A stretch of DNA of 20,752 nt, taken from IMG/VR virus record IMGVR_UViG_3300045921_000004, positions 1 through 20,752 of that record; one strand, given 5' to 3'. Of this stretch, positions 2,225-20,752 are shown piece by piece. The position numbers were made by a program, and so were the translations under genes. The notes under the pieces are model-generated. The model was given only the letters and a program-made list of their open reading frames with translations, was not told the DNA's origin and ran no database searches. How positions within the stretch are numbered: position 1 is the first letter of the stretch; every line of letters begins with the position of its first letter. Source of the DNA: a virus.

Positions 2225-2229
2225 TAAAT

Positions 2230-2817: not shown

Positions 2818-2818
2818 A

Positions 2819-5534: not shown

Positions 5535-5539
5535 TGGTC

Positions 5540-6295
5540 TTATTTCCTAGCGTAATTAGGGCCTGAGTCTGTAGCACGTTTAACGCGCCATTTATTCCGT
5601 TGAGCACGAATCCTAAACCTGCGTTCAGACTGTTCGGCTTTTGGGTTGATTTGCATTTTGTGATTTGCAATACAACGAGTCAGTGCTTGAGTATAAAGAT
5701 TATTAAATAAATTTTCCGGGAGGTCTGGAATAAAAGTATCGCTAAGAGTAAATGTAGGTCTAAACTCTACCTCACACATACTCTTAGAAGATTGAAGAGT
5801 AGAGTCTAAAGACGATTTATAAGAATCAAAAATAATGTACTCATCATCAAAACTGGTCCAATAAGTAGGATGATGAGTTTTACCAACAATCAATGGAATA
5901 TTAGAATCGTATTGAACAACTTGATAATTAACCGTATCCGTAGAAGGACGGGAATTAACCAGAGTTACAAAATCACTAGGAATCATATAGTGCATAGTGG
6001 AATATGCTTTATTTCCAGAAACACTATTCCTAGTATCGTACTTTACCCATTTAACTGAGCTAACGTTTTCCGGAATTCGCATATGGGTTGGCTTGGAAGT
6101 ATTACCAAGCCCTTCCAGACTAACCAATTTACGGTTAGTAGGAAGATCCATTTCGTCGATGAGTTCAAAATAAACCTGGCGCAGCACTTCCGCTACGCTG
6201 GTAGCTTCGATAGTATCTGAAATTGAATTGACCGAGTCTGATCCCATCTCCGATAGGATGCCCTGGGTCATGTCCAGAACTGTTCGTTTAGCCAT
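5540..6295 (-). CDS. Head-to-tail adaptor (tail tubular protein A, gp11-like role)
   Basis: 251 residues. The N-terminus (TVLDMTQGILSEMGSDSVNSISDTIEATSVAEVLRQVY, residues 5-42, shown here in two parts: helix 5-18 and helix 28-42) matches the pattern I know from podovirus and related adaptor proteins: a short helix, a SDSVNSI/DT turn, then a second helix. The middle is beta-rich, and the C-terminal part (FNNLYTQALTRCIANHK, then basic) is helical again, which is the expected plan of a ring adaptor binding the portal. T7 gp11 is shorter (196 residues), so this is a distant relative at best. It lies downstream of the capsid genes and upstream of the nozzle gene. The ATG is preceded by AAGGA at about nine bases, located just after the 14-bp hairpin at 6307-6338. 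Confidence 0.7.
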   Translation of the reverse strand: MAKRTVLDMTQGILSEMGSDSVNSISDTIEATSVAEVLRQVYFELIDEMDLPTNRKLVSLEGLGNTSKPTHMRIPENVSSVKWVKYDTRNSVSGNKAYSTMHYMIPSDFVTLVNSRPSTDTVNYQVVQYDSNIPLIVGKTHHPTYWTSFDDEYIIFDSYKSSLDSTLQSSKSMCEVEFRPTFTLSDTFIPDLPENLFNNLYTQALTRCIANHKMQINPKAEQSERRFRIRAQRNKWRVKRATDSGPNYARK

Positions 6296-6306
6296 TATAA
6301 TCCTTA

Positions 6307-6338
6307 AAGATAGAGGGGGATTTCTCCCCCTCCATCTT
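6307..6338 (-). terminator. Strong GAAA-loop hairpin after capsid/decoration genes, probable partial terminator or processing site
   Basis: On the minus strand the arms 6338-6325 and 6320-6307 pair over 14 bp (one G-T wobble), with the core GAGGGGGA / TCCCCCTC closing a GAAA tetraloop. Only three T residues follow (CTTTAAGG), so it is weaker than a textbook intrinsic terminator. It lies 12 bases past the decoration stop codon and 11 bases upstream of the adaptor start, with the AAGGA ribosome site immediately behind it. The position matches the partial terminator after the capsid gene in T7. It could lower tail-gene transcription, protect the 3' end of capsid mRNA, or be cut by RNase III. Confidence 0.75.
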
Positions 6339-6350
6339 AGTTAGTCATGA

Positions 6351-6839
6351 TTAAACGGGGGTAGCGTCCGTATAATTAACGATCACTCGCAAGCGCCCCG
6401 CCGACGTAATAGTCGGGCTAGTGCCTCCAAGCGTCACGTTAATCGTCTGGTCCGCCGCAAGCGGCGTGTTAGCCGCCAACGTGCCCGCAGGCGTAATCGC
6501 ATAAGTGCCCACAGCCTCGGCCTGAGCCTCGGAAATCTGAGCAAAGCGATTAGTACCTTCCGAGCCCTGCACACCGACGTTAATGACCGGAGAGGTGCCT
6601 CCGAGGTTAAATACCTCGGTAACCTCCACAGTCACGTTACGAACGATAATACCGGCCTTAACTGCCCCAGTGGGGCCAGTATACGTAGTACCACTGAAAT
6701 CGGCACCGCGCAAATCAAACACAAGGACTTTTTCAAATCCCGTTTCGCTAGCTACGGCTCCAAAACCAGCCTCTTCCCCAGTTCGCCGCGTACCATAGTG
6801 GACGCGAAGACCATCAGGATTATTCCAAATAGTACCCAT
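6351..6839 (-). CDS. Probable capsid decoration / head-associated protein
   Basis: 162 residues, beta-rich, Gly/Thr/Val-rich, with no cysteine and no membrane segment. Two segments share LGGTSP followed by a beta strand (about residues 78-90 and 136-148), suggesting an internal pseudo-repeat or paired strands. The gene follows the major capsid gene by 14 bases with a very strong ribosome site (AAAGGAGG, eight bases before the ATG), and it shares the capsid gene's C-ending codon preference, which fits a protein needed in hundreds of copies. A head decoration or head-fibre protein is therefore the best guess; I do not recognise the family from sequence. The strong hairpin downstream would keep it co-expressed with capsid. 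Confidence 0.55.
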   Translation of the reverse strand: MGTIWNNPDGLRVHYGTRRTGEEAGFGAVASETGFEKVLVFDLRGADFSGTTYTGPTGAVKAGIIVRNVTVEVTEVFNLGGTSPVINVGVQGSEGTNRFAQISEAQAEAVGTYAITPAGTLAANTPLAADQTINVTLGGTSPTITSAGRLRVIVNYTDATPV

Positions 6840-6853
6840 GTTGTTATCCTCCT

Positions 6854-7816
6854 TTAAGCAACAATATCAGTGTCGCTGAGGACAACCACGAGGTTCTCCG
6901 GACGATACACTTTCAGACCATAACGCGCGGTCGTAAGATACTCCTCGCGCTGGTAGTCCTTGTTGTAATCCGTATCAACCTTGGGCATCTGCCGCCATGC
7001 ACCCATGAACGGAAGCAGGTCCTTACCTGCAGCCGCCATAAAGATGTTAGCAACACCCGCCGCGGTAGTACGAGATTCCATAGTCTCGTTCTGACCAGTG
7101 GCTAGGTAGTTGCTGGTATAGATATCGAAGCCGTAAATGTTCTTGATAAACCGACGGCCCGACGCAATACCAGACGTAATGATACCCTCCCACATTGGAT
7201 TATTAGACACGTTGGTCAAGTTTGTGATCGTGTTGATTGTATACTCAACCGAGGGGTCAACAATCGCAATAAGATTAGTATCGGGCATGTTAGCCTTCTT
7301 CAGACTATGCAGCGCCCTGGCAAAATCCACAACGGACATAGCCTCTGCCGTACCCTGGGCAACCCAGCGATGGGCAGCACCATTGATAGAGTTCAGAGAG
7401 TTAGCCGTCTGACCACCAGGCGCACCGGCCGCAGCGAGCGCGAGAATCTTAGTTTCAAGATTCTCCATAAGAGCGCGAGCCTGCTTAGGAACGAAGCTCG
7501 ACACAAGCTGGTTCATGTAAAACATGTCCTGCTTGGCCTTCTCCGTAATGTAAGTACCCGACTGCACGTAGTCCGTGATGGTAAACGTGAAGTTACCGGT
7601 ATCCAATGCGTCATAAACTGCCGCAGTGTTTTCGGTATAATCACGAACCGGCAACTCGCCAATACTCGGGATATTGAACGTGTCGCCATCAGGGAACTCC
7701 GTAAGCCAATTGACCCACTGCTGGGCCATCAGCTCGTCGAGGACTACTTCCTTAAGCTGCTGGCTCCAGACATTTGCACGACGCAATTGCGCCGTGTTAA
7801 CTGAAGTCATAGACAT
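6854..7816 (-). CDS. Major capsid protein (HK97-like fold expected)
   Basis: 320 residues. It forms the icosahedral shell. It follows the scaffold gene, as in T7 and many podoviruses. The order of elements fits phage coat proteins: a helical N-arm (LRRANVWSQQLKEVVLDELM, residues 11-30), a long beta/extended segment with the FTITDYVQSGTYITEKAKQD stretch around residues 76-96, a spine-like helix, Ala-rich AAAGAPGG, then VVDFARALHSLKKANMPDTN leading to LIAIVDPSVEYTI (about residues 162-195), and a final IYGFDIYTSNYL stretch. Codons are more C-ending than in portal or tail genes, consistent with heavy expression. The start has AAGGA eleven bases upstream; a second ATG two codons on is possible. 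Confidence 0.85.
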   Translation of the reverse strand: MSMTSVNTAQLRRANVWSQQLKEVVLDELMAQQWVNWLTEFPDGDTFNIPSIGELPVRDYTENTAAVYDALDTGNFTFTITDYVQSGTYITEKAKQDMFYMNQLVSSFVPKQARALMENLETKILALAAAGAPGGQTANSLNSINGAAHRWVAQGTAEAMSVVDFARALHSLKKANMPDTNLIAIVDPSVEYTINTITNLTNVSNNPMWEGIITSGIASGRRFIKNIYGFDIYTSNYLATGQNETMESRTTAAGVANIFMAAAGKDLLPFMGAWRQMPKVDTDYNKDYQREEYLTTARYGLKVYRPENLVVVLSDTDIVA

Positions 7817-7837
7817 TTAAGTAGTATCCTTTAGAGT

Positions 7838-8596
7838 TTAAGTAGTGAAAAACGAATCACCAAGAGCCTGCATATCTTTGTGCATCTGCACCTGAAGTCG
7901 AGCGTCCTGAACAAATTTAAGGATACCCATTTCCTTCTTCAGCTTATTGTAATAAGCCTCATTACGGATTTCGGGACCCGGGTTATTTGAATTAGGACGA
8001 TTTGACTGGTTATACATGCTCCCAGAATTCGTCTGATTAGGGGTAACTCCAAGCATATTCAAAAACGCAGTAGGACTCTTCGTAGCAACTTTGTACAGGT
8101 CCGTGACTTCCATGCCAAGTTCCTGTGCTTTCTGTTTCACGTAAGCCGGAGCATCGCTGCCCAGAGCCTTAATGAGAGCAGAATCTGCCTGACGAATGTT
8201 TGCCTGCGCTAGATCATGCTGCTTGGACGATTCGATCAACTTTACCACATCTTCTGCTGAGAGTCCGGCAGCGGGAGTCTGGGCCGGTGCCTGGGGGGTT
8301 CCCTGCGATCCGTACTGGTTAACGGAATTAGGATTCTGTGGATTGATTCGATCAAGGATCGAAGCTTTGACTTTAAGGGAATCTACTTCCTGAGCTAAAC
8401 GTTGGGCCAGTTCTACTGCTTCTCTCTTTTCCTCAAGAAGCTTTTGAATAAACTGATCCGACTCCATCTTACCTCGAGCTAGGGCTTCCTGCGAGTCGAA
8501 CTTCTTTCCGGGACCGACAAGCTGTTCGAACACCCCAGTTGTCACTGGAGGAGTTCCGCTATTGTCGGCGGGAGGGGTCGTTGTATCAGCGGTCAT
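7838..8596 (-). CDS. Capsid scaffolding protein
   Basis: 252 residues: acidic, Pro/Thr-rich N-terminus, then a long charged helix with heptad-like spacing (about residues 43-82, KMESDQFIQKLLEEKREAVE onward), a Gln/Pro/Asn-rich linker, a second helical segment, an Asn-rich stretch (about 195-210) and a basic helical C-terminus. This low-complexity, helical design and the place immediately before the capsid gene are typical of scaffolds that guide shell assembly and bind coat protein by the C-terminal helix. It overlaps the upstream small gene by 11 bp, with AGGA eight bases before the ATG. There is no visible protease signature, so scaffold exit without cleavage is possible but unproven. Confidence 0.8.
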   Translation of the reverse strand: MTADTTTPPADNSGTPPVTTGVFEQLVGPGKKFDSQEALARGKMESDQFIQKLLEEKREAVELAQRLAQEVDSLKVKASILDRINPQNPNSVNQYGSQGTPQAPAQTPAAGLSAEDVVKLIESSKQHDLAQANIRQADSALIKALGSDAPAYVKQKAQELGMEVTDLYKVATKSPTAFLNMLGVTPNQTNSGSMYNQSNRPNSNNPGPEIRNEAYYNKLKKEMGILKFVQDARLQVQMHKDMQALGDSFFTT

Positions 8597-8849
8597 AGTT
8601 AATTCCTACAATTGGTCTAAGTAATTTTAGAATAAAATCCAGCTCTTCTTGCTGGCCGTTTCTATGAGCCAACTTGTATTGCCAAGCTGGAGTGTCATAG
8701 TCTTGAAACTTGTTTGTTCTATCTTGTCTTGGTTCTAGTAGTTTAATTAAAACCTCAGCAAATGCACCTGAAACTCTAAGTAACTGTTCTCTACGTTCTC
8801 GGTCTTCTTGGGTCTTACAATCTTGAAACCAATTACTGGGTATCTTCAA
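8586..8849 (-). CDS. Small unknown protein between portal and scaffold, TTG start
   Basis: 87 residues if it starts at TTG 8849-8847, which I prefer because a strong AAGGAG lies exactly six bases upstream (8861-8856) inside the portal gene's 3' end. A longer frame from another TTG at 8879 lacks such a site. The product is charged and helical (KTQEDRERREQLLRVSGAFAE), with a Trp-Gln-Tyr segment (PAWQYKLAHRNGQQEEL) and a C-terminus rich in Leu/Ile. I do not recognise it. It overlaps portal by 17 bp and scaffold by 11 bp, so it is translated within the capsid-assembly block; an assembly chaperone or minor head protein is possible but not shown. Confidence 0.65.
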   Translation of the reverse strand: MKIPSNWFQDCKTQEDRERREQLLRVSGAFAEVLIKLLEPRQDRTNKFQDYDTPAWQYKLAHRNGQQEELDFILKLLRPIVGINYDR

Positions 8850-10641
8850 TAGGTTCTCCTTCAGGTGGCGGATCTTCAACTGGAGTCATTCCAGCTACTT
8901 GTAGATGTTCTTGAGCTTCCATCTGAAGTTGGGCTGTTTCTAGCTGTTCTCCAATACGAACATTTGGCTGGAATACGTCATATTTGGATAGCCCAAGGTT
9001 TTCTTCCGCAATTTCTGCAAGCCGTTTTGCAGATAGATGATTACGAATTTCTGGATCTTGGTAGATACCAGAAGCCGTAAGAGACGCCAGATTTTGAATC
9101 ATTTGGTTACGTCCAGCAAAGTGCCTGGCTCCCATAGCAACAAGACGACCCCGAGCCATGAGATCTTCCGGAGTAATCTTGAGGAATTCCTCTACCCCGG
9201 TATCTTCTTGGACTACCTTAACTACTTCTTCAAGGTTAAGATTACGTCGTGCTGACTCCAACATGGAGTTCATTAATGGTTCCAGAAACCATTTTTCAAA
9301 ATAAGAAATCTTGGACTGGAAAATTCGGCTAGAAGCATTTTCAAGAGTCTGTACTTCAAAAGCCGTTTTTTCTCCTGGAGTACGAATACCCATTGCTTGG
9401 CGGGGAGCACCAGCCATAGCTTCCATTGTATTTTCTAGTTCGTTAATTTGAATATCCGCATTAAGAGCGGTGGTATCCGGGCGGAGGAACTCTACATCCG
9501 CGTCCGTATCCATAAAGATACGTTCCCCTGGGGCATAGTTCCAATCTTCTACGTATCCACGTTGCTTGACTACCGGGTAGGCGATCATATCAAACACGTC
9601 TGCCTTGAGGTTTTCAAGATGATTAATGCGATACTGAAGTCCTACCAAATTATCAAGAGGACCCATAGCCATTAGATTATCTGGACGTACCCTCCATCCA
9701 CAATGTTCTTTGGAAGAACGTCCAAAGAAAGATTTAGCCGGGGCTTCTCGAACAACGTAAGCACGGTCGATAATCGTAACTACAACATTCTGTTTCAACG
9801 TCTGAGTGGAGGAATCGTAAAGATCTCCCTCAAATTCCAGAACTTCAACTGAGTCAGAGCAGTAATACTCATACAGAGTATTAAACCCATCTGCTGTAAG
9901 AGCTTGGGATTTATCCATATCCGCTTTTCTAATAGCGGAACGCCCTGCTTCAATAACAGTAGCCCGGTTATTACGAATACGGGCAAGAATGTCATTGCTT
10001 ACTTGCTTCCACTCTGGACGAGTAGCTCGAAGCTTTTCCAATTGCCCAAATGAAAGAATAGTACGGGTAATCTTTGGAGCTTCTTTAAAAGATGGAGCAG
10101 TAATATCAAAAACAATATCAAGTGGACTGATACGAATAAGCTTAGGCCCACTGTATACCTGAAGAGTAATGCCCTCAACTGGTTGGGCTACTTCATTAAC
10201 ATACTCAACGTCAGCAAAACAATTACCGTAATCAATATAATCAAGAACAAGCCGAGATACAGTCTCTTCAAATCCTGAGTTTGAAAATACGTGAGACATG
10301 TACGCTTCAATCGCTCGACGCTTGTCTTTATTGACTGACTCATTATCCGCCCCTTCCCACTTAAACCAAGAGGGACTGGGAAATAACGCTGCCATGTAGT
10401 TTGCGTGAAGGTTATCACGGATCTGACAAAGCTTTGGGCGTACTGTTTTATTTTTCCAAGGAAGACTTGCATTTGTAGTAGACCTTGTATCAGTTGCAAA
10501 AATAAAATTCCGAACTTCAGCCCACTCTTGTTCTTTTCTTGAACGAGCTGATTTCCAAGTGGTGTAATAATTTGAGATTTGGATAGCCAAAGAATCTGGC
10601 TTAATTACCAAATCGAGGTCTAAAGTTTTTGGACGAGACAC
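8833..10641 (-). CDS. Portal protein (head-tail connector)
   Basis: 602 residues, in the size range of podovirus portals. It forms the dodecameric ring at the packaging vertex, through which the terminase pumps DNA. The N-terminal region has the usual plan: a helix with WKSARSRKEQEWAEVRNFI (about 29-47), then PWKNKTVRPKLCQIRDNLHA (about 61-80) and NYMAALFPSPSWFKWEG. The middle contains the DYIDYGNCFADVEYV stretch typical of portals, and the region about 400-430 has the NELENTMEAMAGAPRQAMGI run that resembles a stem helix and tunnel loop. It ends in an acidic Pro/Glu tail. The start codon is GTG at 10641, four bases after the terminase stop, with a weak GGGGTAGG upstream. Confidence 0.85.
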   Translation of the reverse strand: MSRPKTLDLDLVIKPDSLAIQISNYYTTWKSARSRKEQEWAEVRNFIFATDTRSTTNASLPWKNKTVRPKLCQIRDNLHANYMAALFPSPSWFKWEGADNESVNKDKRRAIEAYMSHVFSNSGFEETVSRLVLDYIDYGNCFADVEYVNEVAQPVEGITLQVYSGPKLIRISPLDIVFDITAPSFKEAPKITRTILSFGQLEKLRATRPEWKQVSNDILARIRNNRATVIEAGRSAIRKADMDKSQALTADGFNTLYEYYCSDSVEVLEFEGDLYDSSTQTLKQNVVVTIIDRAYVVREAPAKSFFGRSSKEHCGWRVRPDNLMAMGPLDNLVGLQYRINHLENLKADVFDMIAYPVVKQRGYVEDWNYAPGERIFMDTDADVEFLRPDTTALNADIQINELENTMEAMAGAPRQAMGIRTPGEKTAFEVQTLENASSRIFQSKISYFEKWFLEPLMNSMLESARRNLNLEEVVKVVQEDTGVEEFLKITPEDLMARGRLVAMGARHFAGRNQMIQNLASLTASGIYQDPEIRNHLSAKRLAEIAEENLGLSKYDVFQPNVRIGEQLETAQLQMEAQEHLQVAGMTPVEDPPPEGEPIEDTQ

Positions 10642-10645
10642 GAGA

Positions 10646-12193
10646 TTAAATACCTACCCCGCCAAAGCGAGAATTAAATGCTGGGATTGTACGTTCAACA
10701 GTTGAACGCATAGATCGTGGTGGAACAATACCAATAACCGCGCTTGCTAGAGCGTCTTTAATATCATCGTGTGGGGGGAATTGCATCTTAAGTTCTTCTT
10801 CCAGCAATTGACAGTTACCGCCTTTGTAATGCCAGATAGTCTGGTTATCATATCGTGGTTGAAGAGTAGCTGCAATTCTCTCTTCTTTGGAACCTTCCAT
10901 CCTTGTTGGTTTATATTCCTCAATAGCCAAAGCAAGTCCTGAAGGACGAATATATTGATCCCTAAGTTCTCGGACTACTGCAACCTGAGCAGCAGTAGAT
11001 TCAATCTTGATTTTTTTCAAAGACCATTTAAGAGTAAGATCCCTGATGTGTTCAAACATTTCAGAGATCCTGTCTGTCTTGAATCTATCAATATCCAAGA
11101 CATAAATAAATCCATTTGGGTCTACACCAATAACACAAATTACGGTGTAGTCAGCTTTCTTTCCAAGAGAAAACGCCAAGTCCATTGCAGCGTAAATGTT
11201 GATTGGGTTTCCTCGAACAAACCATTTACCTTGGTTAAGATTAACCTGTGATTTGTCGTAGTATTGGAATTTACTTGAGTCGATTAAACCTTCGTCGTAC
11301 TTGTTAGGATTATTGTAGTACTGAGCGTAAAATTGGTTTTTATCTAGATATTGAGCCTTTTTTCTTGCAAGGATTTGTTGATTAAACCCAAACCACTTGC
11401 CATCATATCTCTGCATTCTAGGCCAGAGATATTCCCCAGACCCATCCCCATTTGATTCTACTTCTCGAAGGAATACTTCGTAGACCGGAGTAGAAGATTG
11501 AAGAGAACCGTCTTCGTTGTACAGTTCCTCTTCCATTTCCATCATATCGTTGTATAAGTCAAGGGGATGGTACCTAGTTCCAACCACCCACTCTTCAGCA
11601 TCCCCAGCTTCAATGGAAGCTAAAAGCGAATATTGGGATTTTACTTTTTCTCTACCTTCTTCCGTGTAAGCATTTTCAGCAACTACTACGTCATCAAGAA
11701 TTGCCACATCACAGTGCATACCAGTGACTGTGGTAGTCAAACCTGCTGTAAAAATCGTAGGGTCTCTAACTCCCTCTTCCTTGCGTTTGGGATGATCTAC
11801 GGAGATTTCACTTGAAGTCCATTTCTCCCTCTTACCCTCATCCGGATGTACCATTTCTGGCCAGTACCTACGGTAGATCTTGGAAGTGAGAATATCTTTA
11901 ATCATCTTCAATTGCTTTTCGGCTAGGTTAGCCGTAGAGCTAATATACAGGATACGTACTGCTGGATCTCTTGTAATCCTCCAAGCTGCCCTATAAGCTA
12001 TAAGGGCTGACTTAGCATGATCTCTAGGAACAAGAACAAGCTGGTGTTTTTTGGCTTCCTGCCTTGTCCACCAGTTTATGATCTCTTCGTGGAAAGGAGC
12101 TATAACCCTATGGGGAGCTACCAGCTTGATAAAAGCCAGAAGATCATTTTCCGCTACTTCCCGAATTGTATTCGGGTTATTAGCCACCAGCAC
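10646..12193 (-). CDS. Terminase large subunit (packaging ATPase and nuclease)
   Basis: 515 residues. It cuts concatemeric phage DNA and drives it through the portal. ATPase part: Walker A-like VPRDHAKSAL at residues 55-64, Walker B VAILDDVV at 163-170 with DD in place of the common DE, and the coupling motif GTRYH at 205-209. RNase H-like nuclease part: AAMDLAFSLGKKADYT with D338, IKIEST with E398, and HDDIKDALAS with D476/D477/D480 as candidate metal ligands. Both domains appear intact. It starts at GTG 12193, inside the last codons of the small-terminase gene (14-bp overlap) with AGG five bases upstream, so the two subunits are probably translationally coupled. Confidence 0.93.
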   Translation of the reverse strand: MLVANNPNTIREVAENDLLAFIKLVAPHRVIAPFHEEIINWWTRQEAKKHQLVLVPRDHAKSALIAYRAAWRITRDPAVRILYISSTANLAEKQLKMIKDILTSKIYRRYWPEMVHPDEGKREKWTSSEISVDHPKRKEEGVRDPTIFTAGLTTTVTGMHCDVAILDDVVVAENAYTEEGREKVKSQYSLLASIEAGDAEEWVVGTRYHPLDLYNDMMEMEEELYNEDGSLQSSTPVYEVFLREVESNGDGSGEYLWPRMQRYDGKWFGFNQQILARKKAQYLDKNQFYAQYYNNPNKYDEGLIDSSKFQYYDKSQVNLNQGKWFVRGNPINIYAAMDLAFSLGKKADYTVICVIGVDPNGFIYVLDIDRFKTDRISEMFEHIRDLTLKWSLKKIKIESTAAQVAVVRELRDQYIRPSGLALAIEEYKPTRMEGSKEERIAATLQPRYDNQTIWHYKGGNCQLLEEELKMQFPPHDDIKDALASAVIGIVPPRSMRSTVERTIPAFNSRFGGVGI

Positions 12194-12746
12194 TAATACC
12201 TATACGTTCTGCGTCTTCCTGAAGAAGCTTGGCTTGATTAGCCTCTTCCACAAGCTTCTGGGCTATATCCTTCTTGGACGGACGACCTTTGTGGTCTTTT
12301 TCAATATATCCCTTCTCAGCTAACCACTTAGCTGCTTGAAGAGAAGACTTATCCCCTGAATTGGCAATATTGCGGATAATCCTAACTGCTTCTGCCTTGA
12401 GCTTAGACTGGAGACTATCCCTCCATTCCGGAAGAACGTCCTGCATGAACTTAGCTTCTCGGAGAATCTTCCAGTGACGGAAAGACCCAAATACCTCCTC
12501 TGCAAACCTGTACTCGGTAGGGTCCATAATCCTCATGTACTCATCCCTGAGAGCTGGAACGGTATGATCCGGGAACTTATCGTAGAAAACATGGTTAGGC
12601 GGAAGTTTATGGGGAAACTCCCTCAAAGTCCATACCGGAACATAAACTTCTGGATCTAGAGATTCGTACTTGTAGGTCTCAATAAACAAGGATTCTGTAC
12701 GGAATCTATTTCTAATATCTTTGTAAGGTTTAGTATTTGGTACCAT
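12180..12746 (-). CDS. Probable terminase small subunit
   Basis: 188 residues, the first gene of the late run, directly upstream of and overlapping the large terminase gene. Small subunits recognise the packaging start site and regulate the ATPase. The middle holds a helical DEYMRIMDPTEYRFAEEVFG segment and a basic-aromatic stretch. The C-terminal half (KLKAEAVRIIRNIANSGDKS, then AAKWLAEKGYIEKD, then KGRPSKKD at about 154-161) fits a small terminase with a helix-turn-helix-like part and a basic AT-hook-like GRP. Family assignment is by position and these general features. The only plausible ATG, 12746-12744, follows an in-frame stop, has an A/T-only leader of about 30 bases and no Shine-Dalgarno, which is unusual among its neighbours. 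Confidence 0.6.
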   Translation of the reverse strand: MVPNTKPYKDIRNRFRTESLFIETYKYESLDPEVYVPVWTLREFPHKLPPNHVFYDKFPDHTVPALRDEYMRIMDPTEYRFAEEVFGSFRHWKILREAKFMQDVLPEWRDSLQSKLKAEAVRIIRNIANSGDKSSLQAAKWLAEKGYIEKDHKGRPSKKDIAQKLVEEANQAKLLQEDAERIGISAGG

Positions 12747-12782
12747 ATTTATATATATTTAGTTAATATTTAGCCCTTTTCC

Positions 12783-12913
12783 CCGGTGACCCATCTCCCT
12801 CTTTCGGCGTCCTGCGCCGTGTCAAGGATAGAGTCAAACATCCAAACAGGATGTGGGTACTCAGTATTCCCCGCAGCTACTTAAAGCTGTAGTGCCCACC
12901 ATAAGGTCACCGG
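12783..12913. ncRNA. Candidate structured RNA or leader element, unclassified
   Basis: A perfect 9-bp closing stem (CCGGTGACC at 12783-12791 with GGTCACCGG at 12905-12913) encloses a compact set of hairpins: 5 bp CGGCG/CGCCG (12805-12809, 12815-12819), 6 bp ACATCC/GGATGT (12838-12843, 12849-12854), 5 bp GTGGG/CCCAC (12853-12857, 12895-12899, sharing two bases with the previous stem), and 5 bp CAGCT/AGCTG (12874-12878, 12885-12889). As minus-strand RNA it would be the leader of the terminase operon. Some extra pairs (12855-12860 with 12864-12869; 12873 with 12890) need G-U wobbles that exist only in plus-strand RNA. It does not match a riboswitch, ribozyme or tRNA I know. The strand and the existence of a transcript are unproven. 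Confidence 0.5.
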
Positions 12914-12914
12914 A

Positions 12915-12949
12915 CCAAGTTGTCAGTGGCTCGACAGAGCTTGGGTTTT
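12915..12949 (+). terminator. Possible weak rightward terminator hairpin or extra stem of the structured block
   Basis: CCAAG (12915-12919) pairs with CTTGG (12940-12944), and inside it TGTC (12921-12924) pairs with GACA (12933-12936) around an 8-base loop. On the plus strand GTTTTCT follows, a modest U-tract. If a plus-strand RNA covers 12783-12913 this would end it. On the minus strand it would simply be one more hairpin at the 5' side of the leader. The bulged stem is weak. Confidence 0.3.
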
Positions 12950-13064
12950 CTATATCCTTAGACCATACAAACAGGTAAAAAGTTCCCTACTTTTGAAAAA
13001 AAATATAAAAATAGGGATTTTCCCCCGGAAAATTTTAAGGGTAGTTTCCCCCCGTAATGCCAGT

Positions 13065-13090
13065 CCCAGTCCCCCCTTCCCCCGTATCCC
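13065..13090 (-). other. G-quadruplex-capable tract on minus strand
   Basis: Minus-strand reading gives four G runs of 3, 5, 6 and 3 separated by loops of 4, 2 and 3 bases, which satisfies the usual G3+ loop 1-7 rule. Another six-G run lies at 13053-13048. The tract sits upstream of the late leader. Confidence 0.5.
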
Positions 13091-13150
13091 TTTGATTGTA
13101 AACAATTTTCAGTATCACGTGCTACCGATGACAAGTGTAAATGAGAAAAG

Positions 13151-13164
13151 TTCCCAATTGGGAA
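13151..13164. repeat. 14-bp perfect palindrome TTCCCAATTGGGAA
   Basis: A perfect dyad with no loop in the non-coding control region, of the size of a dimeric regulator site. No gene overlaps it. No other copy was noticed in the window. Confidence 0.6.
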
Positions 13165-13209
13165 TTAATTTTATTTGGGTTTTCCACTAGTGCTAGCAAA
13201 CTCGACCAC

Positions 13210-13224
13210 GTTAACCTAGTTAAC
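13210..13224. promoter_or_regulatory. GTTAAC-N3-GTTAAC site 1
   Basis: GTTAAC, CTA, GTTAAC. It is the exact reverse complement of the site at 13498-13512, so the two form a 15-bp inverted pair around the control region of the 226-codon gene. A likely operator for a dimeric DNA-binding protein. Confidence 0.6.
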
Positions 13225-13312
13225 ACTGTGATTCTAAACAATATTCCTTCCTGCCGGACTACTGCTAGCGCTATATCGCGTTATAAAGCCGTTATAGCGG
13301 ATTTAGACGTTA

Positions 13313-13344
13313 CCGCTACTACCCTAGCGGCCTAACCCTATAAT
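13313..13344 (+). promoter_or_regulatory. Candidate promoter: dyad at -35 position plus perfect TATAAT
   Basis: TATAAT at 13339-13344 is a perfect -10 hexamer. The place of a -35 box is instead occupied by a 6-bp inverted repeat, CCGCTA (13313-13318) and TAGCGG (13325-13330). This arrangement suits a promoter that depends on an activator or is blocked by a repressor. A start near 13351 would give the 226-codon gene a leader of about 195 bases. A second, poorer candidate (TTGCAT 13411, 17 bp, TAGACT 13434) lies downstream. Confidence 0.4.
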
Positions 13345-13446
13345 CCGCCCATATGCCATCCTAGAGCCTGTCCGCCTAGTGGTCACCGAACATCGTCGTG
13401 TTAACGCTACTTGCATTCTACTCCCGACTAGGTTAGACTATGCATA

Positions 13447-13465
13447 CTAGATGCCAGTCATCTAG
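13447..13465. repeat. 7-bp inverted repeat CTAGATG / CATCTAG
   Basis: Perfect arms at 13447-13453 and 13459-13465 with a 5-base centre (CCAGT). It lies between the promoter candidates and the GTTAAC site at 13498. It could be an operator or a leader hairpin. Confidence 0.5.
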
Positions 13466-13497
13466 GGTTGTTTCACAATTTAACCGGACTACCCTGA

Positions 13498-13512
13498 GTT
13501 AACTAGGTTAAC
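13498..13512. promoter_or_regulatory. GTTAAC-N3-GTTAAC site 2
   Basis: GTTAAC, TAG, GTTAAC, ending 34 bases before the start codon of the 226-codon gene. It is the inverted copy of the site at 13210. From this position a bound protein could block transcription into that gene, for example in autoregulation. Confidence 0.6.
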
Positions 13513-13546
13513 TTGGCAAGTAGTCCATTACTCGGAGGTTAATACC

Positions 13547-14227
13547 ATGTCGATTGTTCTGAATGAGACACAGGTTACTCTGTGTCAGAATCTGGCCGAT
13601 TCCACTGTCAATGCACTGTGGGGGAAGAATGGCATTGTGGAACTTGACCAGCAGTTGATGACCAAGCGGCAGGGCGTCGCGTCTAACCTGACGGCCCTTT
13701 ACCGTGAGGCGGAGACTGGGAAGGATGTCGATGCGAGGCTCGAATTGTTCGCCCGACTCTGCGAATGCTTTGAGGCCGCGTGCATCCAGATCGACGCGGA
13801 TCAGAACAAGGGGAACAAGCGTACCGTCTTCGAAATCTATCCGTCTTGGCGGGTCATGAAATCGGAAATGAAGGCCGCCCTCAAGGCCGGGATTCCTTCC
13901 AAGACTCCGCAGGGGAAGAATTTCACCTACGGCCAGATCAAGGATGCACGGAAGAAACTGACCGGACCGAAGGGCGCCAATGCTGCGCGCGGCAGCAATT
14001 CGTCGGCACCGAAGGTTGAAGTTACCCCTGCCCTTGCGGCGGCTCTGCTCAGCGTTCAGGAATACATTGTGACTCTGGACGCTGCCAAGCAGACCGAATT
14101 TGCCGAATACCTGACATCGGCAATCGCTCGCCACAAGGCTGCGCTAGAGGCTCAGCCCAATGCCAATCATGCCGATATCACGGCACCTGCTCAGAAGGTG
14201 CGCCGGCAGAAGGCGAAGGCTGCTTAG
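13547..14227 (+). CDS. Unknown protein, monocistronic, probably strongly expressed
   Basis: 226 residues, not recognised. It is helical, with a hydrophobic-polar N-terminal half, the segment KRTVFEIYPSWRVMKSEMKA (about 86-105), then KNFTYGQIKDARKKL (about 124-138), an Ala-rich helix (160-200) and a basic tail ending KVRRQKAKAA. The basic ends and mixed helices would suit a nucleic-acid-binding protein, but no domain is visible. GGAGG lies eight bases before the ATG. It has its own strong terminator and its own control region with dyads and two GTTAAC-N3-GTTAAC sites. It is clearly more GC-rich than the late genes, with C/G-ending codons, so it was either acquired separately or tuned for high expression. 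It is a reasonable candidate for the phage regulator. Confidence 0.75.
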   Translation: MSIVLNETQVTLCQNLADSTVNALWGKNGIVELDQQLMTKRQGVASNLTALYREAETGKDVDARLELFARLCECFEAACIQIDADQNKGNKRTVFEIYPSWRVMKSEMKAALKAGIPSKTPQGKNFTYGQIKDARKKLTGPKGANAARGSNSSAPKVEVTPALAAALLSVQEYIVTLDAAKQTEFAEYLTSAIARHKAALEAQPNANHADITAPAQKVRRQKAKAA

Positions 14228-14237
14228 TCCACCTAAT

Positions 14238-14267
14238 ACCCGGGCCTATTCGGCCCGGGTTTTTTTT
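14238..14267 (+). terminator. Strong intrinsic terminator
   Basis: A 9-bp perfect stem (ACCCGGGCC 14238-14246, GGCCCGGGT 14252-14260) with loop TATTC is followed by an unbroken T run through 14267. It lies ten bases after the stop of the 226-codon gene and isolates it from the downstream operon. Confidence 0.93.
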
Positions 14268-15385: not shown

Positions 15386-15395
15386 TGAGGTACAT

Positions 15396-15890
15396 ATGCA
15401 AACGTTTCTCCCATATCCTGATTTCGATGAATCGGCCCGTGCACTGGACACAAAGCGGCTCGTCAAGCAACGGGTAGAGTGTGGGCAAATCCATTCCTCA
15501 CTTGTTACCCCAGGTTATGGGTGGCAGAATCACCCAGCCGTGCGCATGTGGCACAACCACGAGTACCAATTAGTGCAGTATGCTCTTGCTATCTGCCGTG
15601 AGTGTGATAGACGTGGGATATTCGACCATGTCAATGCACACGGCAAGTTCTACGCACTAGCCAAAGAGTACCTGATTAAGCCTGAGGATGAGATCGGTTT
15701 CGATCTGTCTTTGCCGTGGTGGTTCGGAGATTCCAGATTCCACGAATCTCACAAGTCAAACCTGCTACGCAAAGACCCGGTATTCTACGGTAAGTACGGC
15801 TGGACCTGTGGTCCTGATCTGCCGTACTGGTGGCCCACTCAACAGGTAAATATGAACTGGTACAAGGTAAGTGGGAGGACAAATGCGTAA
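15396..15890 (+). CDS. MSMEG_6728-type pyrimidine-dimer DNA glycosylase-like protein
   Basis: 164 residues from ATG 15396 (GAGG five bases upstream); the longer frame adds 31 residues without family character. Motifs: N-terminal MQTFLPYPDFDESARALD, LDTKRLVKQRVE at 18-28, GYGWQNHPAVRMW at 40-52, helix with ICRECDRRG at 67-74, and HESHKSNLLRKDP at 116-128. These are the hallmarks of the MSMEG_6728 family, often annotated as pyrimidine-dimer DNA glycosylase / endonuclease V-like. The likely role is base-excision repair of UV photoproducts in phage DNA, as DenV does in T4, although the activity of this subfamily is less well established. The protein looks complete. It overlaps the next gene by 8 bp. 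Confidence 0.75.
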   Translation: MQTFLPYPDFDESARALDTKRLVKQRVECGQIHSSLVTPGYGWQNHPAVRMWHNHEYQLVQYALAICRECDRRGIFDHVNAHGKFYALAKEYLIKPEDEIGFDLSLPWWFGDSRFHESHKSNLLRKDPVFYGKYGWTCGPDLPYWWPTQQVNMNWYKVSGRTNA

Positions 15891-16089
15891 CGCGATCAGG
15901 TGTACGTTCTGTGGGGCGGTTATTGAGTCCAAGCACAGGCACGATTACCAGTTACATACTTGCCAAAAGATGCAGGAAGACTGGGAGCGACGAGAAGGAC
16001 TAGACCGTGCCATCATTGCAGTAGATGGTGGCAAGGATTACAAACGCAGAGTGTTTTCTCATCCGTCTTACTTCGAGGAGGTTGAATAG
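15883..16089 (+). CDS. Small C2HC zinc-finger-like protein
   Basis: 68 residues from ATG 15883 (GGAGG four bases upstream). The start overlaps the stop region of the glycosylase-like gene, so coupling is likely. Residues 8-28 carry CTFCG, then H-R-H, then LHTC: a C-x2-C ... H-x4/5-H ... C arrangement that would bind one zinc, followed by a charged helix (QKMQEDWERREGL). Such small fingers in phages often mediate DNA or protein contacts; target unknown. Its neighbours do not define a pathway. Confidence 0.65.
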   Translation: MRNAIRCTFCGAVIESKHRHDYQLHTCQKMQEDWERREGLDRAIIAVDGGKDYKRRVFSHPSYFEEVE

Positions 16090-16311: not shown

Positions 16312-16571
16312 AAAAGAAAGGTCGTCCATCTACAGGTAAATGGACCGCCGAATATAGGCGGGAGTACATGCGCAAGTACAGACAAAAACAGGAGGTTAAA
16401 GACTACCAACGTAAGTACCACTATAGCTACATGCGTAAGCCTCGTGATGACGGGAATGACCATAAACGAGTACTTGAACGAATGTGGTGGGATCAATACA
16501 CCGAAGATTGTGAAATTTGCAAGGACCCGTTAACAAAGTTAACTGATGAGGACAACAGCAATGACCACTAG
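16302..16571 (+). CDS. Basic protein resembling a truncated endonuclease VII / HNH front end
   Basis: 89 residues from ATG 16302; a TTG at 16281 is the alternative start and no good Shine-Dalgarno supports either. It starts KKKGRPS (AT-hook-like), followed by Tyr/Arg/Lys repeats (EYRREYMRKYRQ; YQRKYHYSYMRK), and ends DCEICKDPLTKLTDEDNSND then H and stop. The C-E-I-C-x2-P-L segment resembles the first zinc knuckle of endonuclease VII-type HNH nucleases, but the catalytic DH..H/N part and second CxxC are missing: the frame stops right there and the next gene, which it overlaps by 11 bp, is unrelated. Either a remnant cut when the next block was inserted, or an independent small DNA-binding protein. 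Confidence 0.5.
   Translation: MGLKKKGRPSTGKWTAEYRREYMRKYRQKQEVKDYQRKYHYSYMRKPRDDGNDHKRVLERMWWDQYTEDCEICKDPLTKLTDEDNSNDH
16529..16543. promoter_or_regulatory. GTTAAC-N3-GTTAAC site 5, inside coding sequence
   Basis: GTTAAC AAA GTTAAC, the exact reverse complement of the site at 14410-14424. It lies in the last codons of the preceding small gene and 17 bases upstream of the COOH-NH2 ligase start. Either an operator for the following block or a module junction. Confidence 0.5.
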
Positions 16572-17316
16572 ACCATTGACTTTTGGTATGGACGTTGAGT
16601 TCTTACTGCTTATGAAGCGTAAGAACAGGGCAGTTCCTGCCTGTGGTTTGTTCGGAGGTACCAAGAAGAATCCAATTCAAGTACCATTTGAAGATAACGG
16701 CATCATGATGCAGGAAGATGGTGCGTGTCTTGAACTTAACTGCCCGCCCTGTAATACAGTCGGTGAATGGGCGATGATGGCGCGCCGTCTTGGATCTGCT
16801 GCCAAGAGATTGGCGGATGAAAAAGGACTACGTGTTAGTCGAGCATCTGACGAATTGTTTTCTCACATTCCGTACAAGAAAAAGTATGCACGCATGTTTG
16901 TAGTTGGGTGTGACCCAGACTTTGATGCCTTCCGTGAAGGACAACAACGTAGGGTGTTTGATATAGAGGAGTTCAATAACCTAAGGTTTGCTGGTGGGCA
17001 TATCCACGTAGGCTACGACACTTCTGAACTGGACCCTACATTGTTTGCTCGGGCAATGGCGTACTACCTAATGCACCTGCATAACCAGTTCAATCACAGG
17101 TTCAGATATTATGGGTACCCTGGGATATTTCGTCCTAAGCCATACGGGGTAGAGTACCGCAGCTTGGATAACACATTTTGTTTGCACGACTACACTCTTA
17201 TCGAAGTAGCTGCTGGACTTGATCGTATGCGGCACGATTGGGAGCACAATCGTCAAACGTTTATTAACAACGCCATAAATGTGGAGCGTAGATATGCGCC
17301 TGAAACCTACGTGTGA
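16561..17316 (+). CDS. Phage COOH-NH2 ligase (phiEco32-type, glutamine-synthetase fold)
   Basis: 251 residues from ATG 16561 (GAGG nine bases upstream; a further ATG at 16546 is in frame). Motifs in order: FGMDVEF at 8-14, where the Glu is the expected metal ligand; QEDGACLELNCPP at 51-63; RFAGGHIHVGYD at 142-153, the His-x-His strand; and PYGVEYRSLDNTF at 194-206 with the Arg expected at the nucleotide/acyl-phosphate site. These are the signatures of the phage carboxylate-amine ligase family named after phiEco32 (Pfam COOH-NH2_lig). It should activate a carboxyl group with ATP and join it to an amine, forming an amide or peptide bond; the substrates are unknown. Catalytic residues look intact. 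First gene of the ligase block; its end overlaps the next gene by 23 bp. Confidence 0.85.
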   Translation: MTTRPLTFGMDVEFLLLMKRKNRAVPACGLFGGTKKNPIQVPFEDNGIMMQEDGACLELNCPPCNTVGEWAMMARRLGSAAKRLADEKGLRVSRASDELFSHIPYKKKYARMFVVGCDPDFDAFREGQQRRVFDIEEFNNLRFAGGHIHVGYDTSELDPTLFARAMAYYLMHLHNQFNHRFRYYGYPGIFRPKPYGVEYRSLDNTFCLHDYTLIEVAAGLDRMRHDWEHNRQTFINNAINVERRYAPETYV

Positions 17317-17965
17317 TGTAGAATCTATTGAGGACTTTCGCAAGTACTATCTATCCGGGTATGTAACCTTGAGAGATAGTGACAAAGTTTGTCTTGTCCA
17401 TGAAGTAACTAGTGCCAATGGTGGACAGGTTATTCTACGTGAGGTGGACATTACTACTCCGGGAGGAGGTGGGTACATTCTACTAGATTGGGCTGGAGTT
17501 AGACGTAGTATTGTCTTCGGTAAAGTACCGGGGGGTATGGTAGATCTTGGGGGTAAGGTAGTATACATATGGGAATCCAACAACAGGCAAAGCCACCGAG
17601 GATTCTTCCCTCGTATATGGAGGGTTAATACGATAGGAGGTAGATTAGATCCTGATGTACAGGTAATGATGGAAACCTCTCGGGTAGGCGCTGATGAGAG
17701 ATACGCATGGTGTACTTATCATCGTACCTTTACCCCGATTCAGAACTATAACCCTACTAATGGTAGGGCAATAGCGATATCCACTTTATGGGCATTAGCC
17801 CCACATCCAGAGACTGGAACCCATGTTTTGTACCGACGTAACGATCCGGTAGGCCACTACTTCCCAGAGAAACGACACGTAGTACTTGGTCCTTCCGAAT
17901 ACAAGAAATACGCGATTACACTTTCTTACCTGCTAGGAGTAACATGCAATGAGCGAGCAGCCTAG
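17294..17965 (+). CDS. Unknown protein inside the amidoligase block
   Basis: 223 residues from ATG 17294, with GGAG seven bases upstream; the start lies inside the ligase gene, so the two are coupled. I do not recognise a family. It is mainly beta with many Gly, Val, Arg and Trp: VILREVDITTPGGGGYILLD around 51-70, a VYIWESNNRQSHRGFFPRIW segment around 92-111, and a C-terminal helix. Three cysteines (about 7, 33 and 140) do not form a clear metal site. Being sandwiched by two amidoligases with overlaps on both sides, it is probably part of the same system, for example a carrier, substrate-binding partner or target, but this is context only. Confidence 0.65.
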   Translation: MRLKPTCDVESIEDFRKYYLSGYVTLRDSDKVCLVHEVTSANGGQVILREVDITTPGGGGYILLDWAGVRRSIVFGKVPGGMVDLGGKVVYIWESNNRQSHRGFFPRIWRVNTIGGRLDPDVQVMMETSRVGADERYAWCTYHRTFTPIQNYNPTNGRAIAISTLWALAPHPETGTHVLYRRNDPVGHYFPEKRHVVLGPSEYKKYAITLSYLLGVTCNERAA

Positions 17966-19013
17966 TCTGTTAAAGAATGACCCACATCTGCGTGGGTGGT
18001 ACCCTGTAATGCCTCAATATAAGTTTGAAGCTTTTGGGGTATTGCCTAGTAGTCCCGGTGCTTTACTTGGGATAGAACTAGAGTACGAGGGTACAAAATC
18101 CTCTCCAAGATATCTACGTGAGAGTTACCCAAAAATCTTTGAATGGTGGGTAATAGGATCAGACGGTAGTCTACGTGGTGAGGACGCATGTGAAATTAGA
18201 TCATCCGTCCCTATGAGTGTAGCCCATGTGGAATACTGTTTACCCCAGTTACTTGAGCTATCCAGCAAGTGGCAAGTGAATAAGCGTACTGGACTGCATG
18301 TTCATCTTGATGTCGGGCATATGACTCAAGATAACTTAGTTAAATTGCTGTGTTTGTACGGACTGCTAGAACCTGCTGTCTTTACAGCAGCGGGGGATGA
18401 GCGAAGTGCTAATCCATTTTCTGTTCCGTGGTATAAAGACGCCTATGCTAGTAAATTGGTAGCTACTATTTGTGGTGGGGGAGATGCAGTTTGGAATTCC
18501 ATAAACTTGGGTGGGAAGTACTCAGCACTTAACTTCCGCCCCATCTTGGAATATGGTACGGTTGAGTTTCGGCATATGAAGAATACTCATAACGTATCCC
18601 ACATCTTTGGGTGGATCAGCATGATTCTCCATATGCGTAACGCCGCTATGTCCAAAGAGTTTGGGGAAGTCTTTGCTAATACTCTTGAGACTAGAAATTA
18701 CCGCAGGTTACTAGCCTGGGTATACGGGGGCGACGGTAATATCTGGGGTAGACTCCTCTACCCAGATCTAGAGGAGGAGATAGATATTCTAACTTGGGAG
18801 TTAGCACGTGAATACTATTATGCTGTACTCCCCAACACATTCCTTAAGCTAGTTAACAAGAAAAGGAGAGCACGTAAACCTAAACCTAACATATTTGGTA
18901 TAGATGTAGAGGAGGTGCAACGAGCATTGGACAATAGAGAAGCTGATTTGAGGCAAGCTCAGTTTGAGCCTATGCCGCCTGAATTTGATGATGTTGCTAA
19001 CGGAGGTAACTAA
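17949..19013 (+). CDS. Second amidoligase (Amidoligase_2-like, glutamine-synthetase fold)
   Basis: 354 residues. Motifs: GIELEYEG at 41-48 (two Glu metal ligands), SDGSLRG with E82-I-R at 71-84, GLHVHLDV at 115-122, and NFRP at 195-198 leading to GTVEFRHMKNT at 203-213 (Arg for phosphate binding). This is the full motif series of the Amidoligase_2 family, which joins a carboxylate and an amine using ATP. The C-terminal 140 residues are helical and basic (KKRRARKPKP), ending in an acidic tail. It differs clearly from the first ligase, so the block holds two distinct ligases rather than a recent duplication. It overlaps the preceding gene by 17 bp and ends three bases before the amidotransferase start. 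Confidence 0.88.
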   Translation: MSEQPSLLKNDPHLRGWYPVMPQYKFEAFGVLPSSPGALLGIELEYEGTKSSPRYLRESYPKIFEWWVIGSDGSLRGEDACEIRSSVPMSVAHVEYCLPQLLELSSKWQVNKRTGLHVHLDVGHMTQDNLVKLLCLYGLLEPAVFTAAGDERSANPFSVPWYKDAYASKLVATICGGGDAVWNSINLGGKYSALNFRPILEYGTVEFRHMKNTHNVSHIFGWISMILHMRNAAMSKEFGEVFANTLETRNYRRLLAWVYGGDGNIWGRLLYPDLEEEIDILTWELAREYYYAVLPNTFLKLVNKKRRARKPKPNIFGIDVEEVQRALDNREADLRQAQFEPMPPEFDDVANGGN

Positions 19014-19016
19014 TAG

Positions 19017-20456
19017 ATGTGTGGTATTATTGGGTTCGCACAACAGTCAATCCCAGCATCTGGTGGGTGGCGTGACAAGGACCAGCAACTGAAGATGTTT
19101 GTAGAGCAGATGCTTTACATGGATGCATTGAGGGGGCCGCATGCTACCGGAGTTATGCGGGTAGATCACAAGCAAAAGAATGAGAATGCCTTTATATACA
19201 AGAGGGCACTGCATGCTTATGACTTCTTGCTTCAGCCAGCTATGGACTGGCTAACTAAGAACTTGACAGACGCTTCTTTGTTTGTTGGCCACAACAGATT
19301 CGCTACTCAAGGAGGAGTCAGGGCTGATAAGAACGCTCACCCATTTAATTCTGGTAATGTGTCTTTAGTACACAACGGGCACATTAATAATGGGTTTAGT
19401 TTGACTACGGATAATACAGTCTTTGAAGTTGACTCAGCTTATATTGCCCATGCTCTAAGTCAAGTTGAACCAACTGAGGCTACGTCTGTCCTTGCAAAAC
19501 TTAACGGAGCGTATGCTTTGGTATGGCATGACTCTCGTGATAACACAGTTAACATTGCCCGTAATAAGGACCGGCCACTTTACTGGATCAACCTTGGCAA
19601 TAACGAGCACAAGATGTGGCAAGGCATTGTCTTTGCGTCGGAGATGGAGATGCTTGCTACTGTATGCTGGCGAACAGGACTGGCAGTACACGGAGACTTC
19701 ATGTACCCACGACAACATGTCTTGTATAAATTTAAGTTAGATGAGGTACCTAAATACACCTCCACTGAATACACCCCCGTGCAGGAGGTCGGGGCTTCCC
19801 GCCCTTTTCAGCAAACCCATATCGTTGGCTATGGGGGGACGACTAACACAAACTCGGGGTCCCAATTATCCGGCAAAGAAAGAAAATGGAAGCAACGACT
19901 TGAGCACGCAACCAGTCTCATATTCGACCGCCCAGTGGAGTTCATTCCTACCAAGTGGGTGGCTTACAAAAATCAAAGAGGTCTTGGGGCTGCATACGGA
20001 ACCACCCCCTCCGAGAAAGAATACGATATCGAAATAGCAGCGGTTACTAAGAATCAATTTAACTTGATTAAAGACTGTAGCTACCGGCTCTGGGTACGTC
20101 CCAAGAATATAGTTACAGGTCACCACGGTAAGCGCGCTATTAGGGCAGAGTTCTGTCAAGACATCAAGCGATGGGAGGAGGCTAGACTTAAAAATCAAGA
20201 GCAAGAACAGAAACAAAAGGACCAAGAGATTCCCCCATCAAGGGTGTTCGTATGTGGTCCGGGAGGTAGGTATATCCCGGAGTCTGAGTTCACTAAGTTA
20301 ACAAGTAAAGGCTGTTCTAATTGTGGTTCTAACATAAGTTCGGATGACGCATCTCAGATTGTTTGGGCGGGAGATACAAAAGATTCCCCGATATGCCCAT
20401 CTTGCGCAGAAGATTTATTCCCATCACGTTATTCAATTAGGAGCATGTTGCAATAA
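19017..20456 (+). CDS. Class II glutamine amidotransferase with C-terminal zinc ribbon
   Basis: 479 residues. The N-terminal Ntn-hydrolase domain (1 to about 235) is complete: Cys2 nucleophile in MCGIIGF, RGPHATGVM at 39-47, GHNRFATQGG at 91-100, NAHPF at 106-110, LVHNGHI at 118-123 and FEVDSAYIAH at 136-145. These match the glutaminase half of GlmS, PurF and AsnB. It should release ammonia from glutamine, or transfer it, but no synthetase or isomerase domain follows. Instead come a linker, an unrecognised alpha/beta segment (about 288-390), a Glu/Gln/Lys-rich coil (about 391-410) and a zinc ribbon with C433-x2-C436 and C460-x2-C463. The ammonia acceptor may be supplied by the neighbouring ligases. 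The stop overlaps the next start as TAATG. Confidence 0.9.
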   Translation: MCGIIGFAQQSIPASGGWRDKDQQLKMFVEQMLYMDALRGPHATGVMRVDHKQKNENAFIYKRALHAYDFLLQPAMDWLTKNLTDASLFVGHNRFATQGGVRADKNAHPFNSGNVSLVHNGHINNGFSLTTDNTVFEVDSAYIAHALSQVEPTEATSVLAKLNGAYALVWHDSRDNTVNIARNKDRPLYWINLGNNEHKMWQGIVFASEMEMLATVCWRTGLAVHGDFMYPRQHVLYKFKLDEVPKYTSTEYTPVQEVGASRPFQQTHIVGYGGTTNTNSGSQLSGKERKWKQRLEHATSLIFDRPVEFIPTKWVAYKNQRGLGAAYGTTPSEKEYDIEIAAVTKNQFNLIKDCSYRLWVRPKNIVTGHHGKRAIRAEFCQDIKRWEEARLKNQEQEQKQKDQEIPPSRVFVCGPGGRYIPESEFTKLTSKGCSNCGSNISSDDASQIVWAGDTKDSPICPSCAEDLFPSRYSIRSMLQ

Positions 20457-20752
20457 TGAAAGCACGAGTAGCAGTATATGGTACCCTGAGAGAGGGTGAG
20501 TACAACCATCATATCCTAGTTAAAAGTGGAGCAACTTTACTTGGGTCTACTTTCATTCCAGGATATTTGATGCTCAGTCTAGGAATGTTCCCTGGCATTG
20601 TCCCTTGTAAACGGGATGATTGGGAGGTGTACGTTGAAATTTATGAAGTAGATTCCCCTACTCTTGATAAACTAGATAAACTTGAAGGTGTGGGTAATGA
20701 CTTCTATGATCGGGTAAAGGTAGATACTATCCTGTTTGGTAAAGTATTCTTG
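20456..20752 (+). CDS. Gamma-glutamylcyclotransferase-like protein, truncated by window end
   Basis: The first 99 codons are visible, starting at the ATG in TAATG. YGTLREGEYN at 8-17 is the substrate-binding loop of the GGCT/AIG2-like fold (YGSLRxGxxN in relatives). LDKLEGV at 73-79 carries the acidic residue (E77) in the position of the catalytic Glu of gamma-glutamylcyclotransferases, and the Asp-Phe-Tyr-Asp-Arg after it also fits. Such enzymes split gamma-glutamyl amides to 5-oxoproline and a free amine. In this block it may remove or edit the bonds formed by the two ligases. AGGAG lies 12 bases upstream, so translation is probably coupled to the amidotransferase gene. Confidence 0.82.
   Translation, partial: MKARVAVYGTLREGEYNHHILVKSGATLLGSTFIPGYLMLSLGMFPGIVPCKRDDWEVYVEIYEVDSPTLDKLDKLEGVGNDFYDRVKVDTILFGKVFL

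Follow-up and report, generated by a model that had tools for sequence, protein, structure and literature searches.

Several podoviruses carry a group of genes that has been described as a putative "peptidoglycan modification" module (PMC5498523, PMC11945000, PMC6256558, PMC3890496). Citing papers trace the naming of this cassette to Iyer 2009 and Hardies 2013 (PMC5498523, PMC11945000, PMC6256558). Peptidoglycan as the target is a proposal of the same literature (PMC5498523, PMC11945000), and the module is present in lytic phages, for example, the LUZ24-like group (PMC3517423, PMC3890496). The literature available to us contains no biochemical test or activity for any module member. In the butirosin pathway, the ligase BtrJ puts a gamma-glutamyl group on, and BtrG, a cyclotransferase of the AIG2/GGCT family, takes it off. 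The block that we analyzed is a truncated, divergent copy of the podovirus amidoligase module and not a new system; a first-pass annotation of this DNA had overstated its novelty, as the module is already named in the four papers cited first.

The window, meaning the whole stretch of DNA analyzed, covers the entire 20,752-base record IMGVR_UViG_3300045921_000004. Its left arm is the virion module of a short-tailed phage, and its right arm (plus strand) closes with a five-gene block at 16561-20752 (Table 1). The content first assigned to this block was confirmed, namely, two unlike ligases (here lig2 and the amidoligase), a glutaminase, a gamma-glutamyl cyclotransferase (GGCT), and a protein of unknown function (here mid). 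The five genes had been called overlapping, which holds for three of the four junctions: the lig2 and mid open reading frames (ORFs) share 38 nt (17279-17316; less if mid begins at its internal ATG), mid and the amidoligase share 17 nt, and the glutaminase and GGCT share 1 nt, whereas a 3-nt gap separates the amidoligase from the glutaminase. For lig2, the ATG at 16561 given in the first-pass annotation is preferred over 16546, having the better ribosome-binding site (GAGG about 8 nt upstream). All five ORFs are real genes, four by strong PHROGs/Pfam matches and mid by a purpose-built profile. The block is not a chance arrangement, because the same genes recur in the same order in more than 100 phage loci.

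Table 1. Features of the window, with coordinates from its first base
Feature	Coordinates	Strand	Remarks
Left-arm gene products	2..12746	-	Internal virion protein, tail appendage, tail protein, major capsid, portal, terminase
Divergence of leftward and rightward arms	12746..13547		Arms diverge between these positions
Intrinsic-terminator-like hairpin	14238..14260	+	Strong; 9 pairs (8 G-C) then seven T; directly 3' of first rightward gene
Pyrimidine dimer DNA glycosylase	15393..15890	+	PF03013, 79 bits; just 5' of the block
DUF7695 protein	15871..16089		59.5 bits; follows the PF03013 gene
lig2, phiEco32-type COOH-NH2 ligase	16561..17316	+	ORF open from 16546
mid, conserved core protein, no assigned activity	17279..17965	+	Probable start ATG 17294
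Amidoligase_2 family ligase	17949..19013	+	phrog_7469, PF12224
Class II (Ntn) glutamine amidotransferase (glutaminase)	19017..20456	+	phrog_4736, PF13522
GGCT (GGACT/AIG2-like), first 99 residues	20456..20752	+	PF06094; record ends inside gene

Three of the enzymes were placed by PHROGs profiles: lig2 as a COOH.NH2 ligase (phrog_3815, E=8e-37), the amidoligase by its phrog (E=1e-30), and the glutaminase likewise (E=2e-71). The Pfam profiles that had been suggested for the block gave a mixed result. The glutaminase matched PF13522 with 56 bits and GGCT matched PF06094 (GGACT) with 66 bits (cut-off, 22.8), whereas both ligases fell slightly below their cut-offs, lig2 scoring 24.1 bits against PF14395 (cut-off, 25) and the amidoligase 20.1 bits against PF12224 (cut-off, 22). 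Catalytic residues were not lost on alignment. Every column that is 100% invariant across 168 lig2 sequences or across 146 amidoligase sequences is conserved in the window protein, and window lig2 deviates at three near-invariant columns only (D172A, S208D, and W211F). The glutaminase keeps C2, R94, N120, G121, and D139, and the partial GGCT keeps Y8, G9, and E77, the last at the catalytic position.

The AF2 model of lig2 (pLDDT, 89.9) has a glutamine synthetase (GS) fold. Its matches were glutamine synthetase, YbdK, glutamate-cysteine ligase, gamma-glutamyl-methylamide synthetase, and PafA, with VIA Z scores of up to 11.8 over 178 residues (rmsd, 3.2). Most of these enzymes use the gamma-carboxylate of glutamate. 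The GS catalytic-domain fold of the model, together with a set of acidic, His, and Arg residues that is conserved in full, identifies lig2 as a predicted GS-fold carboxylate-amine ligase. A sequence search of solved structures returned no significant relative of lig2, the amidoligase, or mid.

The glutaminase ends at its C terminus in a zinc-ribbon-like CxxC...CxxC arrangement, the cysteines of which are present in most relatives. Pfam detected the glutaminase domain and otherwise only weak ribbon-like matches, and NCBIfam scores lay far below their cut-offs. Identification as GlmS, PurF, or AsnB was rejected, as no SIS, PRTase, or synthetase acceptor domain follows the glutaminase domain. Database labels call these phage glutaminases GlmS, yet in most of them a zinc-ribbon-like end replaces the isomerase domain. 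GGCT proteins encoded between the glutaminase and an ATP-grasp gene (loci L036, L080, L109, L114, and L171) have about 260 to 300 residues, including a C-terminal extension, and the truncated GGCT of the window may have the same extension.

The protein between the ligases looked at first like an orphan, since tblastn with mid alone found nothing at E<=1 in the phage records. This impression was rejected by profiles, which place mid in a family. A first profile, made from the middle ORFs of 18 other phages with the window excluded, found the window mid at E=1.4e-8. Iteration gathered 152 ORFs and gave the window mid E=7e-25, a value obtained with the window sequence already inside the profile. 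The same approach recovered an unannotated gene in phage ctwe8250 (L003, 5377-6069) and a gene in phage Lyrsu01 (L010, 6797-7390), where the public annotation has an ORF on the opposite strand. A single homologous family sits between the two ligases in 20/20 reference phages. An unassigned ORF of 183 to 234 residues fills the slot in four further loci, and the mid-to-amidoligase gap has a median of -8 across loci, a typical overlap. One subgroup, with long amidoligases of about 580 residues, has no recognized mid. Its members (L042, L045, L046, L061, L069, and kin) have two GGCT genes, in the order GGCT, GGCT, Peptidase_C26 (C26), ATP-grasp, C26, lig2, glutaminase, amidoligase.

The AF2 model of mid is confident (pLDDT, 83.7; pTM, 0.77) and has an SH3/tudor-like barrel at the N terminus followed by another small part. 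The fold search against the PDB gave nothing at E<=0.001, and the best VIA Z score (4.6, to the N-terminal region of RapA) lies under the level of a clear match. Because such barrels are common, no function was read from this fold. Among predicted viral proteins there were 11 significant fold matches, all of them unnamed or uncharacterized phage proteins. Mid is a core member of the module, and we infer that it would act as a noncatalytic partner. The arrangement of two unlike ligases around this protein is real; the protein itself belongs to the module as a recurring part with homologs in other phages and is not peculiar to this one. As a usual fixed part of the module, mid goes beyond the published accounts examined.

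In tblastn against 50,697 phage records, lig2 found 316 records, the amidoligase 249, and the glutaminase 330, with similar host tallies. The 20 reference regions have lig2, a protein of 160 to 220 residues, and the amidoligase in order, with the glutaminase before or after; they also have an ATP-grasp ligase. Most include GGCT or else a class I amidotransferase-like protein, and a primase/helicase often adjoins. Single-sequence IMG/VR scans with lig2 and the amidoligase found no close relatives and alignments were required, which gave 516 and 438 relatives, from which 160 loci were kept. The survey set comprised the 103 loci flanked on both sides by at least 3.5 kb, dereplicated to 73 clusters. 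An ATP-grasp gene was present in 72 of these 73 loci, the amidoligase in 71, mid in 61, GGCT in 46, and C26 in 40; the counts for lig2 (73) and the glutaminase (72) are partly by construction, as loci were chosen via one or the other. No other family is near-universal in the 73 loci, none exceeding 25/73, and the cassette is a closed set of families. A ribosomally made peptide substrate encoded within the module was unsupported, as small ORF families recur in at most 17/73 neighborhoods.

The survey bears out the first-pass expectation that these genes travel together. The genes listed then were right, but the ATP-grasp ligase was missed, as was the C26 gene of many relatives, where it often replaces GGCT. 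In relatives with the order of the window (lig2, mid, amidoligase, glutaminase, GGCT), the ATP-grasp gene comes next; by this gene order, the copy that is absent from the fragment should sit just beyond the contig end. In the lig2 tree, the window lies on a long branch within a 13-row clade (99% support), the other members of which all have GGCT. Upstream of the module in L002 (6055-7002) and its kin lies phrog_7973, a 315-residue family with no assigned function, whose profile matched in 22/103 loci.

The class I amidotransferase-like protein of relatives is a Peptidase_C26 (77 bits, above the Pfam cut-off), for which NCBIfam gave weak matches to PuuD and to gamma-glutamyl-CDP-amidate hydrolase. 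Peptidase_C26 is the family of PuuD and the folate gamma-glutamyl hydrolases; it and GGCT have unrelated folds, and the chemistry that they have in common is gamma-glutamyl cleavage. One or the other is present in 72/73 loci (GGCT alone in 32, C26 alone in 26, both in 14, and neither in 1). This near-universal gamma-glutamyl-cleaving enzyme goes beyond the published accounts examined. The two families partially avoid each other across the 73 loci (Fisher p=1.6e-8), a pattern that is suggestive only and confounded by phylogeny: the labels follow clades, with 9 and 7 changes, and well-supported independent contrasts number only 2. After this control for kinship, avoidance did not stand as a statistical finding in its own right. 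The bonds on which C26 and GGCT act could differ, and a genome scored as having C26 only could carry a GGCT gene at another place.

The capsid and tail of the window phage are nearest to Zobellviridae. The closest relatives of its major capsid protein are those of Celeribacter phage P12053L and SIO1 (Cobavirinae), at 54 to 55% identity, and a search of these two phages for the module families found none. Since the nearest capsid relatives are without the module, it comes and goes within the family. Among 84,980 cellular genomes, lig2 was found in 8 contigs only, all in metagenome bins and mostly short; each carries several other module genes, and some carry a primase, and these contigs are probably phage. 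The near absence of the module from cellular genomes implies that it serves phage growth. It is common in short-tailed phages, judging by the phage records found with lig2 and the more than 500 IMG/VR relatives.

We propose that the module carries out gamma-glutamyl ligation, further peptide ligation, and then gamma-glutamyl release, with a cell-wall precursor as a speculative substrate, and we give this reading an even chance. Addition and release of a gamma-glutamyl group is the simplest common logic because of the GGCT or C26 gene in nearly every locus and the GS-type fold matches of lig2. In this scheme, lig2 would activate a carboxylate with ATP, most likely the gamma-carboxylate of glutamate, and link it to an amine of the substrate. 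Further amide or peptide links would come from the second GS-like ligase and from the ATP-grasp ligase that the fragment lacks, with ammonia provided by the class II glutaminase. Mid, in which no enzyme fold is recognizable, might keep the ligases, or the substrate, together. The gamma-glutamyl group would be freed by GGCT or, in relatives, by the PuuD-like C26 hydrolase. Such protect, extend, and release logic would be that of the Puu polyamine pathway and butirosin biosynthesis, and the multistep pathway of the first pass is upheld as likely. The leading candidate substrate, which is speculative, is a cytoplasmic cell-wall precursor, perhaps altered so as to shut other phages out of the host or to help lysis; no sequence feature links the module to peptidoglycan. 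A more far-reaching version, which we regard as tentative and rather unlikely, is a phage-restricted line of this kind with a nonenzymatic mid, a substrate that has no known cellular pathway, and an interchangeable GGCT or PuuD-like hydrolase. With mid as a core part and a near-universal gamma-glutamyl cleavage enzyme, what was a vague proposal becomes specific and testable.

PafA and the depupylase Dop (Z, 10.8 to 11) resemble the lig2 model to about the same degree as glutamine synthetases do, and the ATP-grasp partner is RimK-like. The ligases might couple a host or virion protein to glutamate or a short peptide by an isopeptide bond, in the style of PafA and Pup, with GGCT or C26 removing the added group. 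The zinc-ribbon-like end of the glutaminase and the tudor/SH3-like barrel of mid, both common in proteins that bind proteins or nucleic acids, would fit. Fold likeness, however, cannot tell protein from small-molecule substrates, the 73 neighborhoods encode neither a Pup-like protein nor another conserved small protein alongside the module, and to our knowledge, the substrates of GGCT enzymes are free gamma-glutamyl amines or peptides and not proteins. We consider protein modification unlikely. Similarly improbable is a gamma-glutamyl-derived compound that counters host defense or decorates nucleotides. The phage-restricted distribution, the primase/helicase and replication genes that usually adjoin the module, and the weak similarity of C26 to gamma-glutamyl-CDP-amidate hydrolase are consistent with it, but any takeover function would equally be expected among the early genes, enzymes that handle nucleotides do not recur within the module in the 73 loci, and PADLOC gave no match. 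An auxiliary role in helping the host to assimilate ammonia into amino acids of the glutamate family, which has been suggested for Planctomycetes phage ZRK32, is very doubtful: the accessible part of that report describes growth promotion by a phage with amidoligase, glutaminase, ATP-grasp (glutathione synthase), and GGCT genes, an effect given there for the whole phage and not for individual genes (PMC10945688), whereas the module has one partner without a recognizable enzyme fold and two unlike ligases that are almost always together, and it occurs in lytic phages.

Gamma-glutamyl ligation and release, the reading that we prefer, can be set beside three known systems. Like BtrJ and BtrG of butirosin biosynthesis, the module pairs a ligase that would add a gamma-glutamyl group with an AIG2/GGCT-family enzyme that would remove it; in contrast to butirosin, no carrier protein or aminoglycoside genes accompany it, and the ligase fold differs. 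The Puu pathway, with PuuA (gamma-glutamylputrescine synthetase) and PuuD (gamma-glutamyl-GABA hydrolase), combines a GS-fold ligase with a Peptidase_C26, as do the C26-bearing relatives. Beyond this pair, the module has another GS-like ligase as well as an ATP-grasp ligase and a class II glutaminase. Enzymes of putrescine oxidation did not appear in the annotated regions, and the window phage has GGCT and no C26 gene within the fragment. The closest system is the podovirus module of phiEco32, PaP3, the LUZ24-like phages, RIO-1, PA11, and PSA-HP1. The window differs from it in having proteins only about 20 to 33% identical, virion genes from another branch, and a copy that stops before the expected ATP-grasp gene. 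The enzyme families are nevertheless the same, with a COOH-NH2 ligase and an Amidoligase_2 together, an adjacent glutaminase, mid, and a partial GGCT, and the lig2-mid-amidoligase order is matched in all 20 reference phages; the block is of the phiEco32 type, as first described. The glutaminase directly follows the amidoligase in the window and PaP3 and nearly so in UFV-P2, which has the same order save for an inserted HNH gene (PMC3890496). A further difference of the window is the GGCT directly after the glutaminase, an order that it has in common with a subset of its IMG/VR relatives.
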